Virus record (IMG/VR): IMGVR_UViG_3300042691_007365
Span: 1 to 22,768 of that record
Origin: a virus
Direction: 5' to 3' (one strand)
Length of the DNA stretch: 22,768 nt
The position numbers were made by a program, and so were the translations under genes. The notes beneath the pieces were generated by a model. The model did no database searches and was not told where the DNA came from. It saw nothing but the letters and a program-made list of their open reading frames with translations. Below, piece after piece: positions 5,165 through 22,768 of the stretch (positions within the stretch are counted from its first letter, which is position 1; every line of letters begins with the position of its first letter).

Positions 5165-5524
5165 TTAGTTCAGAAATGCCTGCCCTGAGAATGTCCCAGA
5201 GAAGCTAACAGTGAGGCTATTATTGGAGACGTAATTGACTTCTCCATAGACCACATTACTTGCGCTATCTACAACCGAAACGGAGGGATAGCAAGCAAGA
5301 TTATGAGTAATTGTCCAGCTGCTTGCTGGAACATTTTGATTATGAATGTATGTAGCGTGTGAAGCACCAGATGGACCTTGTGGTCCAACCTCACCCTGGA
5401 TTCCTTGCGGACCGACCTCGGCGAGCACTACCTCAAAGGCATTTGTCTGAACTTCGACTGTTAGATTTTCTTCGTCCACGACTACTACATTGGCTGGCTG
5501 CTCAACTGTAGTATTCGTACTCAT
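5165..5524 (-). CDS. Collagen-like short tail protein (119 aa)
   Basis: The start ATG at 5524 overlaps the TGA stop of the gene before it as ATGA, suggesting coupled translation. The first 35 residues are acidic and beta-rich. Residues 38-53 read GPQGIQGEVGPQGPSG, five Gly-x-y triplets, a collagen-like segment able to trimerise. The C-terminal about 60 residues (SWTITHNLACYPSVSVVDSA onward, ending FSGQAFLN) form a small beta domain that resembles the C-terminal end of the 483-aa fibre (HSLGTKNVIVNVYDS). The protein is probably a short trimeric fibre or a linker between the tail tip and the longer fibres. Only five triplets are present, so the collagen part is a short coupling segment and not a long rod. 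Confidence 0.78.
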   Translation of the reverse strand: MSTNTTVEQPANVVVVDEENLTVEVQTNAFEVVLAEVGPQGIQGEVGPQGPSGASHATYIHNQNVPASSWTITHNLACYPSVSVVDSASNVVYGEVNYVSNNSLTVSFSGTFSGQAFLN

Positions 5525-19255: not shown

Positions 19256-19459
19256 TTAGACTTTTCGTTTCTTTTTGTTACGGAATGCTTTCGGCATCAG
19301 CTTTGCAGCTGCAAGTCGAGCACGAGAGATCAACCGAAGTTTTCTTCGTTTGAATTGAATTCGCCCGCGTAACGCGAGGTCAAATTTCTTATTCGTGGCA
19401 AACTTACGAGTTAACTTTCGCCTATTTGTTATTCTCGAGAACGGTCGAGGCTTCGCCAT
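19256..19459 (-). CDS. Tiny, very basic protein of unknown function (67 aa)
   Basis: I start it at the ATG at 19459, six bases after GGAGGG; the frame is open to 19513 but that part is inside the glycosyltransferase frame and has no better ribosome binding site. It overlaps the end of the glycosyltransferase gene by 38 bases. The protein begins MAKPRPFSRITNRRK and has 27 Lys or Arg in 67 residues with a single acidic residue (Asp27). It ends AFRNKKKRKV. I know no family for it. The charge suggests binding to DNA or to the acidic inner capsid surface. It could be a minor head protein or a packaged DNA-binding protein. It is not tested by sequence alone and should be called hypothetical. Confidence 0.72.
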   Translation of the reverse strand: MAKPRPFSRITNRRKLTRKFATNKKFDLALRGRIQFKRRKLRLISRARLAAAKLMPKAFRNKKKRKV

Positions 19460-20606
19460 TGAATGCCCTCCACAGTGCTGTGCGGTAGCTGTCCCATGAG
19501 AACTGCTTGGCACGGCTTAGACCCTTGGCTCGCATCTGCTCTCGCAGCGACGGGCTCAGGAACATCTTCTCGATCTCTGCCGCGATTGACTCAGGGCTGA
19601 GGTTTGCGTATCGGCTGTGACTCTTGTTTACTATCCAGTCATGCGGCTCAATGAGAATCCCAGCATCACCCACGACCTCGGCACCTGCGCCGTAGTTCGT
19701 GTGCGCCACTGGAAGTCCACAAGCCATCGCCTCAACAAGTGGCAGCCCAAACCCTTCTACCTGTGAAGGAAGAACGAAACAGTCAGCCATGTTGTATAGG
19801 TCGACAAGACCAGGATAGTTATGAGATGTTAACGCAACTGAGTCATTGTGCTTCGCATGCTTTCCTGAGAACAGCACGTTGTCTACAATGTCTAGTTGGT
19901 GAGCAAGCTGAGGGAGATCGTGTCCACCAAGATGGTAGTTGTCAAACGGCACGGTGTGCGCGTAGAGCACCACTTGCGGGTGCTTAGAAGCTACAATCTT
20001 GATCGCCTCGAATAGCCGAGGCCACTGCTTACGCTCAACGTTCTGAGCCACGTTCATGACAACAAACTTGTCATCCCATCCGACAGACTCACGAAGGAAT
20101 CGTCGGTGTTCTGGCTCATACTGGTAGAAGTCATCAGATACTCCGTGATATGCCATTGTCGACTCAAGTCCATTTCGCTTGAGCTCGTCAACGCCATACT
20201 GTGAGCATGTAATGATCTTTAGGTTTGGTGTCTGGTGTAGAACCTGAACCCAGTTATAGTTCATCGGTGCACCCTCAATCGGCATATAGACCGTAATGGG
20301 GAGCTTAATCAGATCTCGGCGAAGTAGCCACATGACTACCGTCGCTGGGTCTGCGATGATGTGCACTGCATCGATATCATGCTTTTTTAGCGTGATCGAT
20401 ACGTTTTTCCAGCCGATTGCATCTTTCTGCATCGACTCAATTGGGTAATAGTAATGACCCTTGCCAAGATCACGCTTCTGCGTATCTTGACCTCCAATGA
20501 CCACCAGCTGGTGACCGACAGACTTCAGGTGCTCTACAGCCACCGAGTTTACGATTCCAAAACCAGTTTTTATAAACGGTGAATCACCGAGCATGAGGAT
20601 TTTCAT
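19422..20606 (-). CDS. GT4-type glycosyltransferase (394 aa)
   Basis: The ATG at 20606 overlaps the TGA of the upstream small gene as ATGA, so translation is probably coupled. The N-terminal half begins MKILMLGDSPFIKTGFG, the acceptor-side Rossmann start of GT-B enzymes, with TGFG as the Gly loop. Residues 189-195 (NVERKQW) hold the Arg/Lys pair that contacts the donor phosphates. Residues 284-292 (EGFGLPLVE) are the E-x7-E motif of GT4 retaining enzymes, followed by AMACGLPV and GAGAEVVGDAGILIEP. Length is full for the family. The donor and acceptor are unknown. Since it lies between the capsid and connector genes in the same direction, glycosylation of a virion protein is plausible; a role on host surface glycans is also possible. 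Confidence 0.92.
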   Translation of the reverse strand: MKILMLGDSPFIKTGFGIVNSVAVEHLKSVGHQLVVIGGQDTQKRDLGKGHYYYPIESMQKDAIGWKNVSITLKKHDIDAVHIIADPATVVMWLLRRDLIKLPITVYMPIEGAPMNYNWVQVLHQTPNLKIITCSQYGVDELKRNGLESTMAYHGVSDDFYQYEPEHRRFLRESVGWDDKFVVMNVAQNVERKQWPRLFEAIKIVASKHPQVVLYAHTVPFDNYHLGGHDLPQLAHQLDIVDNVLFSGKHAKHNDSVALTSHNYPGLVDLYNMADCFVLPSQVEGFGLPLVEAMACGLPVAHTNYGAGAEVVGDAGILIEPHDWIVNKSHSRYANLSPESIAAEIEKMFLSPSLREQMRAKGLSRAKQFSWDSYRTALWRAFNGEASTVLENNK

Positions 20607-20917: not shown

Positions 20918-21790
20918 TTAGATCGTGAAACCCTTGAGGCGCACAGGGCGACCCTCAAGAGCGAAGCCGAAGTACCCCTTAATGTAGAAGTCCTCAGCAT
21001 CCTTCGTCTTGGCAAGCATCTCCATCGTGAAGTCCTGGTTCACAATGAGCTTGGCATCCGCACGGCGGAAGAAGAGAATCTCGTCTTCCTCGTAGTGGTC
21101 GTCCGTAACGATCGGCACGCCGTCGTACGAAAGAACGCGGAAACCAGCGCCGACCTCAACTCGGTCAAGGAAGCGCTGCTGACCCTGAAGAAGGGCATTG
21201 ATCTTGCGGCGGACAGCGCGGCTCGTCATGATAACGTCAGCCTCGCCCTTCGTGTCGTCAAGAGCCTTGTCAATCATGGCAAGGGTCAAAGCGCCAGAAG
21301 CGGTGGTCGTACCACCCTCATCGCCTGGGGTAGAAGTATTGATCTGATTCTTGATGCCGACGATGCCAGCATTTGAATCTTCCGTGCCGTCGCCGACGCA
21401 GATCGCTTCCGCGAGTCGCTCAGCAATCACGCCCGAGTGGACGCGAATCTCTTCCTGCAGCGCGTTAACAACGCCACCAGCAGCCGCGATAAGCGGACCA
21501 GTGACCTCACCACGGGTGTACAGGTACTTGACGGTCTTTGCAACCTTCGCGTATTCCGAAGAAGTTGCAGCTGGGAGTGATCCACCATCGGTGCTGAATG
21601 CAGCCGAAGGAAGTGCGCTGCGCTTGCGGATCCAGTAGGTCTGGGTCGGCCAGTTGACGCGGGTCACAACGCTAAGAACAGGGGTAGCCTTGGCAACGTA
21701 GTCGCGGATTACTGGATCGACAACCTCTGGGAGGAGGTATGCACCAGTCGAAGCGACGGACGTGCTAAGAGCTCGCTCAATGTCAGCCAT
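20918..21790 (-). CDS. Major capsid protein, HK97 fold (290 aa)
   Basis: The ATG at 21790 follows AAGGAGACTTTCA. The protein begins MADIERALSTSVASTGAYLL, then PEVVDPVIRDYVAKATPVLS, which is the usual 'g.lvpe.v...i.......s.vr' start of HK97-fold capsids. It continues WPTQTYWIRKRSALPSAAFS, then AKTVKYLYTRGEVTGPLIAA, and VHSGVIAERLAEAICVGDG followed by GIVGIKNQINTSTPG, the E-loop/P-domain region with 'e..faxGDGt...GI'. Late motifs are VIMTSRAVRRKINALL, GVPIVTDDHY and the closing KGYFGFALEGRPVRLKGFTI. Length and position after the protease/scaffold gene are typical. It shows no long N-terminal delta domain, so scaffolding must be supplied by the separate scaffold described at 21814-22431. This is a confident family call. 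Confidence 0.95.
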   Translation of the reverse strand: MADIERALSTSVASTGAYLLPEVVDPVIRDYVAKATPVLSVVTRVNWPTQTYWIRKRSALPSAAFSTDGGSLPAATSSEYAKVAKTVKYLYTRGEVTGPLIAAAGGVVNALQEEIRVHSGVIAERLAEAICVGDGTEDSNAGIVGIKNQINTSTPGDEGGTTTASGALTLAMIDKALDDTKGEADVIMTSRAVRRKINALLQGQQRFLDRVEVGAGFRVLSYDGVPIVTDDHYEEDEILFFRRADAKLIVNQDFTMEMLAKTKDAEDFYIKGYFGFALEGRPVRLKGFTI

Positions 21791-21813
21791 TGAAAGTCTC
21801 CTTAGTTTTATTA

Positions 21814-22431
21814 TTACTTGTAGATATTACCGAGAGCGTACTTCAGCTTTTCCTCATTGCTCATTGCGCCGAGGTCTGGAAGTCCAGTCTCAAACTTTTC
21901 GCGGACAACGGGAGCAGGCAATTTGCCAGCAGGAAGCTCTTCGAGCTTCTTGATGTATTCAGCCTGCTTCTCGACTGTCTCGCGGAGGACTGCCGTGCTC
22001 TCGTCAACCTTAGCGGTGACAAAGGCGGTAATAGCCTCAGCGAGGTCGCGGCGAACCGAAACCCCATTAAAGTCCACATTCTCATCTGCAGGAGCATCTT
22101 CAGTCTTAGCGACTGGTGCTTCCTCTGCAGCCTGCGGTGCGTCGGGTTCGAAAACCCCGAGCGTCTCGAGTTGCCCCTTGAGCGCGTTGAACGCATCGAC
22201 GAGCTTCTGTGCATCGCGCTTGGCGATACGGGCTCGCTCGACATCCTCAGTCTCCTCAGCGGGAGCAGCAGCCTCAACAGGCGCAGCCTCCTCAGCGGGA
22301 GCGGGGGTTGCCTCAACGACGGGGGCTTCGGTCTGCTCGGTCACCTGATCGGCAACGGGTTCCGCAGACTCATTTGCGGCGACGTTCTCAACCACTTCGG
22401 TTGCGTCGCTCTTAACGAGCTCTTCTGCCAT
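21814..22431 (-). CDS. Scaffold protein from an internal start (about 205 aa)
   Basis: Inside the protease frame, codon 112 is an ATG (22431) preceded by GGAG five bases upstream and an AGGAG a little further off. It is in frame with the larger gene. The product would begin MAEELVKSDATEVVENVAAN, contain an Ala/Pro/Glu-rich stretch (residues about 15-85), a helix ERARIAKRDAQKLVDAF and a coiled-coil-like segment STAVLRETVEKQAEYIKKLE, and end EEKLKYALGNIYK. Acidic, flexible, helical scaffolds of this length are usual for HK97-fold phages, and lambda makes Nu3 in the same manner from inside gene C. That this start is used is inferred from the ribosome binding site and from the abrupt change of composition at this point. 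Confidence 0.7.
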   Translation of the reverse strand: MAEELVKSDATEVVENVAANESAEPVADQVTEQTEAPVVEATPAPAEEAAPVEAAAPAEETEDVERARIAKRDAQKLVDAFNALKGQLETLGVFEPDAPQAAEEAPVAKTEDAPADENVDFNGVSVRRDLAEAITAFVTAKVDESTAVLRETVEKQAEYIKKLEELPAGKLPAPVVREKFETGLPDLGAMSNEEKLKYALGNIYK

Positions 22432-22768
22432 ATTTTCTCCAATCTCCTCACCCTCGATAGAGCGAGCGAGTACAGTGCCGAACGACGGAACCCACGAGGG
22501 GCGCGTCGTATTGCTAATTTCCTTCAGCTTAATCTTGAGGAATCGAATAACCTTTTCTCCAGAGGAGGGGTCATCAATCATGCGGTACTGGACACCATCT
22601 CCAGCGATCGACATCCCATACTTTTTACCCCTCTTAATTCGGCTATGCAAATATGCCGCTGCGGGGTTATCTGGGTGTAGGCGAACCTTGATGTTCAGCC
22701 TATAGTCGCTAGAAACAGAGCCATCCACAACTTCTCCAAGTTCGCGGAGGACACCATCTTTCATGTGA
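21814..22768 (-). CDS. Prohead protease-scaffold fusion, 5' end cut off by the window
   Basis: The frame is open to the right edge: the codon before the ATG at 22764 is His (CAC) and no stop is seen, so the true start is probably outside the window. In the visible part, numbered from that ATG, GMSIAG (residues 50-55) places a serine (Ser52) like the nucleophile of S78/XkdF-type prohead proteases, whose active motif is usually G-(L/M)-S-I-G. Residues 76-95 (LKIKLKEISNTTRPSWVPSF) match the strand with 'L.E.S....P' that follows in that family. The catalytic His of the family usually lies upstream and may be beyond the edge. From residue 112 on the composition changes to an Ala/Pro/Glu-rich and helical scaffold. 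The enzyme cuts scaffold and capsid during head maturation. Confidence 0.8.
   Translation of the reverse strand, partial: HMKDGVLRELGEVVDGSVSSDYRLNIKVRLHPDNPAAAYLHSRIKRGKKYGMSIAGDGVQYRMIDDPSSGEKVIRFLKIKLKEISNTTRPSWVPSFGTVLARSIEGEEIGENMAEELVKSDATEVVENVAANESAEPVADQVTEQTEAPVVEATPAPAEEAAPVEAAAPAEETEDVERARIAKRDAQKLVDAFNALKGQLETLGVFEPDAPQAAEEAPVAKTEDAPADENVDFNGVSVRRDLAEAITAFVTAKVDESTAVLRETVEKQAEYIKKLEELPAGKLPAPVVREKFETGLPDLGAMSNEEKLKYALGNIYK
22437..22448 (-). promoter_or_regulatory. Internal ribosome binding site for the nested scaffold
   Basis: The minus strand reads AGGAG, then ATT, then GGAG, five bases ahead of the in-frame ATG at 22431. Two purine-rich sites in a row at the junction between the protease and scaffold parts are unlikely to be by chance, though Glu-rich coding (GAG GAG ... 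GGA GAA) can also create them. Confidence 0.6.

Follow-up and report, generated by a model that had tools for sequence, protein, structure and literature searches.

Nested starts in described systems and a probable one at the locus

In-frame starts that nest a scaffold within a protease gene are known from phages lambda and Mu: lambda C and Nu3 are annotated in this way, and the Mu record gives Z a 'start site internal to gene I', with the capsid gene following, a likeness drawn from annotation only. Here we analysed positions 1 to 22,768 of the IMG/VR virus record IMGVR_UViG_3300042691_007365 (the window, 22,768 nucleotides), in which a minus-strand frame directly upstream of the major capsid gene (21814..22767, 317 open codons, truncated at the 5' end by the edge of the contig) has a comparable layout. 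From sequence comparison, we consider it very probable that this one frame encodes a head-maturation protease carrying a scaffold as its C-terminal half, and that the scaffold is also made separately from an in-frame internal ATG. The initial annotation had called this the lambda C/Nu3 arrangement; the logic is indeed the same, but the proteases come from different families, lambda C being annotated as an S49 peptidase whereas the protease of the window has the S78/T4 gp21-type fold. No S49 model appeared among the Pfam matches of the protease frames searched at E values up to 1. The family would represent lambda-like nesting on an unrelated protease, and what is new is this other protease type, together with unusually good comparative evidence.

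Further described systems share parts of the layout. T4 gp21 and Peptidase_S78 prohead proteases have their fold in common with the protease domain of the window, and an internally initiated scaffold at the C-terminus is not known to define either family. In the herpesvirus pair UL26/UL26.5, the nested scaffold has the C-terminus of the protease and is made from a separate nested transcript, as opposed to the internal initiation on one mRNA that we propose here. In lambda itself, the annotated Nu3 ATG has a weak Shine-Dalgarno (SD) score (-2.7), and the strongest internal SD-ATG of gene C by the same score (L116) lies at record position 5342 (-10.8) and would give 131 amino acids; we presume that the true Nu3 start is later than annotated and its product shorter, for which a literature search returned no confirming paper. 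The best database match, A0A6J7WT14 ('Prohead protease', 602 amino acids, uncultured Caudovirales phage), is 67% identical over 393 columns and named as a single protein. Consequently, public databases already contain this gene family, but as a single protein whose name would hide the scaffold, a main assembly protein. For Pseudomonas phage MD8, protease, scaffold and capsid domains have been proposed to lie within one gene, gp5 (PMC8508860); unlike in the window, the capsid protein is fused too, and the passages concerned give no internal start (PMC8508860). On nested scaffolds in such proteases, open-licence PMC text yielded only statements about the lambda, P2, MD8 and HK97 types, a result that applies to those texts and not to the printed literature as a whole.

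Conservation of the internal start signal

On the minus strand, the internal ATG (22429..22431) follows the C-terminal part of the protease domain and a linker (22432..22767) and opens a nested coding sequence of 205 amino acids plus stop (21814..22431), acidic and rich in Ala, Pro and Glu. It is preceded by GGAG, an SD core with a 5-nt spacer (22437..22440), much as the initial annotation had described. The 'double' ribosome binding site proposed there is really one site: the nearer GGAG stands at a working distance and is conserved, whereas the second purine run, GAGGAG (22444..22449), at 12 nt from the ATG, does not persist across the wider family, being lost or altered in the relatives L033, L036, L037, L039, L063 and L064. 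The change in composition reported at the ATG is borne out in that Ala, Pro and Glu rise from 0.16 of the 112 residues before it to 0.41 of the 205 residues from it on, but the ATG is not at the edge of the fold, lying about 25 residues past the last protease strand. The anti-SD duplex energy at this ATG, -8.2 kcal/mol, equals that at the start of the major capsid gene; among 127 in-frame ATGs internal to 19 window genes, 4 have an equally strong SD, and in openness of the mRNA from -30 to +30 the site exceeds 94% of these 127.

An IMG/VR protein search returned 16 close loci, and all 15 that cover the site have both the GGAG and an identical SD-ATG string, with differences in the nine preceding codons confined to GGT/GGC and one Ile codon. 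Since synonymous diversity within this clade is low (mean 0.063) and a cross-group constraint test was not significant (see below), this identity proves little alone. Among more distant relatives, capsid-protein searches gave an intermediate set at 65-81% capsid identity, and the nine frames that reach the site, out of ten examined, all have an ATG with an SD (9/9), although the preceding peptide varies in sequence and length; in L037, for example, the SD lies in a different codon phase, with Gln-Glu in place of Gly-Glu. Three further loci from an alignment search (L063-L065), with proteases 47-48% identical and scaffold halves none of which was matched by tblastn, keep GGAG, the 5-nt spacer and the ATG (3/3). 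The alignment with related phages that the initial annotation had proposed as a check therefore finds the start and its binding site kept at all three distances; the loss of either, which it had named as refuting evidence, is not seen in the close and intermediate sets, while one lineage of the wider family discussed below (L101-103) fails outright.

We then counted the junction signal across that wider family. Searches with the L063 and L039 capsid proteins led to 36 further frames, with L106 left out because its match was cut off. The count set comprised 58 frames, after L095 (no frame) and L072-L074 (copies of L063-L065) were dropped; of the three originals, L063 and L064 entered the count, which left out L015, L016 and L032. 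At 85% protease identity the frames fall into 26 lineages. A hit was defined as ATG, GTG or TTG with an SD core at a spacing of 4-10, located +5 to +20 codons past the last motif of the protease. Hits were found in 22 of the 26 lineages, against 2.6 expected from codon shuffling and 5.5 from synonymous redrawing of codons, and in 49 of the 58 frames overall; control windows in the same frames gave 36 hits in 536. Clustering with one member per cluster, after removal of frames in which under 90 residues precede the motif, gave 7/7 hits at 60% identity (expected 2.3, P = 1.2e-4) and 9/11 at 70% (expected 3.6, P = 3e-4); all P values are nominal, and the lineages are not independent.

The start codon itself turns over. 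The 22 hit lineages comprise 12 with ATG, seven with GTG (L096 doubtful) and three with TTG; the junction Val is written GTG in L077, L078, L079, L084, L085, L086, L087, L088, L089 and L097, and the junction Leu TTG in L083, L092 and L104, with GGAG, AGGA or GAGG standing 5-10 nt ahead of the codon in every case. In these frames, GTG accounts for 17% of Val codons and TTG for 18% of Leu codons. A tree of 28 rows, of weak resolution, requires at least nine changes of the start-codon label, the label for misses included. The initiation signal is thus kept while the amino acid at the junction changes, and since peptide, distance and start codon all vary while the signal stays, the pattern points to translation initiation rather than to conservation of a residue.

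The two putative products and alternative explanations

The identity of the N-terminal part as a head-maturation protease is supported by family and fold. The complete relative L002 matches phrog_80 (head maturation protease) at 1.6e-9, the window frame alone matches it weakly, and a structure search, in which only the protease part was matched, retrieved the T4 gp21 fold (5jbl, E 6.4e-6, probability 1.00); herpesvirus proteases were weak fold matches (E 0.17 and above). Peptidase_S78 (PF04586) aligns to residues 23-94 of the window frame (E 9.6e-4), and its cut-off of 21 bits is not reached (19.8 bits here; 18.8, 17.3 and 18.1 bits elsewhere), so the protease is called S78-like only. H68 and S120, which we take to be the active-site His and Ser of an S78-type protease, are invariant in all eight rows of the protease alignment. 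The L002 protease-scaffold model (15 sequences, mean pLDDT 64.9) is folded to residue 154, disordered over 159-250, with Met179 inside this stretch, and helical at 248-277, 315-352 and 379-391. Accordingly, the internal ATG sits in a predicted disordered linker with long predicted helices after it.

Under the two-product arrangement, ribosomes starting at the protease start, upstream of the window edge, would make the protease-scaffold, and others, guided by GGAG to the ATG at 22431, would make the scaffold alone. Free scaffold would shape the prohead, and protease-scaffold copies would be drawn into it through the shared tail, later to degrade the scaffold. It is plausible, as the initial annotation suggested, that relative initiation sets the protease:scaffold ratio. 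The scaffold SD is the stronger in 18 of the 20 frames in which both can be read (Wilcoxon P 0.0013, not corrected for kinship), which fits more scaffold than protease; the order is reversed in L063 and L064, and the two SDs are nearly equal in the window's own clade (-7.8 and -8.2 in L002). The natural exchanges of start codon (ATG/GTG/TTG) and SD spacing would form a ready series for tests of this ratio, and the junction rule could help to uncover scaffolds that lie hidden in further phage genomes.

Several observations weigh against two products. The junction of L101-103 has no start with an SD, the ATG of L080/081 is served by a weaker SD, L098 has a TTG with an SD at the unusual distance of +30, L099/105 and L109 have an ATG with GGAG about 11 nt away, and the hit in L096, whose frame has an insert, is probably accidental. 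The openness of the mRNA is absent in L037, L063 and L064. Tests for synonymous constraint around the ATG, within the close clade and across three or six groups, were suggestive and not significant (cross-group permutation P = 0.097 and 0.063). With the start held fixed, the Gly/Glu-rich peptide alone yields an equal SD in 30-54% of synonymous recodings of nine representatives. The scaffold half has no match of useful significance in family searches, and use of the start, scaffold role, stoichiometry and recruitment are all inferred.

Some of these points would suit a gene that makes only the fused protein, as P2 gpO presumably does, with the motif serving the protein, for instance as a linker or cleavage site, and its Gly-Glu codons resembling an SD by chance: the peptide often yields an SD unaided, the constraint test is not significant and L101-103 manage without the signal. 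We consider this improbable, because the peptides at the site vary (GEN, GEV, QEND, GET, GDNP, GVN, GVT, EGN) and are followed by M, V or L, the common element being GGAG, AGGA or GAGG with an ATG, GTG or TTG codon, and because synonymous redrawing accounts for 5.5 lineages and not 22. The conserved start signal across relatives instead argues for two proteins from one frame, as the initial annotation had anticipated. That the start is real and the short product has a role other than scaffolding, such as regulating the protease or serving as an internal head protein, would agree with its lack of homology to known scaffolds. As no family matches, the scaffold role is read from position, composition and predicted shape. 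The coding sequence of the short product lies immediately upstream of the capsid gene. The product is acidic and, as is usual for scaffolds, is predicted to be disordered towards its N-terminus and to form long helices in its C-terminal part. In the capsid protein, the match to the HK97-type model already begins at residue 16 (PF05065 profile positions 1-269 on residues 16-278), too early for the protein to have a delta-like scaffold domain of its own. A non-scaffold product therefore also seems a poor prospect, and a scaffold nested in the protease frame is the reading we prefer.

Upstream leaders, neighbouring genes and isolates

The full-length gene exceeds the part present in the window, and in relatives it can begin with a leader. 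In the L002 frame (606 amino acids), the protease is preceded by a phrog_2859 domain (1.5e-45) and a piece with a weak TUDOR-like match; the leader of L012 lacks this middle piece, and L034 and L042 have a different one. GAGGAG with ATG or TTG stands at the protease start in 13 of the 13 leader-bearing frames listed, and as this string is kept inside a longer frame, the protease start looks active there. No leader is present in L036, L037, L039 and L063-065; in L037, L039 and L063-065 the protease starts within the end of the preceding frame, and L063-065 carry nearly the same start string in the end of the preceding gene, in another phase. The leader lies outside the window and for its phage is suggested by relatives. 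It is conceivable, though we think it unlikely, that this clade uses three nested starts (leader-protease-scaffold, protease-scaffold and scaffold), with the tail loading leader fusions into the prohead as cargo and the leader an N-terminal module that is exchanged between relatives (a phrog_2859 domain, or a TUDOR-like, Cys-rich or ferritin/Dps-like one). If so, small numbers of leader fusions would co-assemble, and the frame would serve to load cargo in addition to its part in assembly. In L034 (2997-3344) and L042 (2988-3344), a Cys-rich module (CGNC...C...CKLW) replaces the TUDOR-like piece, and the L034 leader has no Pfam match. A ferritin/Dps-like domain occurs in the leader of L101 (1149-3473; PF00210, 3.4e-9), L102 and L103, the same lineage that lacks the scaffold start.

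The major capsid gene, of HK97/SU10 type, occupies 20918..21790 on the minus strand (PF17236, 2.8e-15; PF05065, 4.1e-12). Close downstream of it lies a glycosyltransferase gene (19422-20606, minus strand; PF00534, 5.7e-22); L063 has a glycosyltransferase-like frame, recognised by eye, and phage phiPsal1 an annotated one. The frame before the protease in L002, L039, L042 and L063 was taken as the portal by eye; in phiPsal1 the annotated order is portal, one small gene, protease, two small genes and capsid. A plus-strand frame of 296 codons opposite the gene (21790-22680, TTG) was discounted, as it probably reflects codon bias. The 83-kb contig IMGVR_UViG_3300027608_000021, source of L005 and L010, holds two different head-module copies (18-31 kb and 73-83 kb) and is a chimera or two joined phages.

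A search of prokaryote genomes gave 203 stretches matching a pattern, none confirmed as a relative. Against isolated phages, tblastn found no match to the window's part of the gene or to its capsid protein, and isolates were matched only by the complete relative with its leader. BFK20, phi674, phiPsal1 and DSL-LC01 were considered as possible isolates with the same junction, and none gave a clear counterpart; in phiPsal1 the annotation places a scaffold/propeptide within the capsid gene, and a separate scaffold would therefore not be expected. In Roseobacter phage CRP-811 (L070, 2986-5436), an 816-amino-acid frame annotated as major capsid protein holds a phrog_2859-like leader with protease-like and capsid parts, and has AAGGAG before an in-frame ATG at codon 404. 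The annotated protease of phage BFK20 (L069, 2063-3115) has an N-terminal part that, by eye, looks P-loop-like; its codon 147 is an internal ATG with a very strong SD (-12.9), possibly the real protease start.
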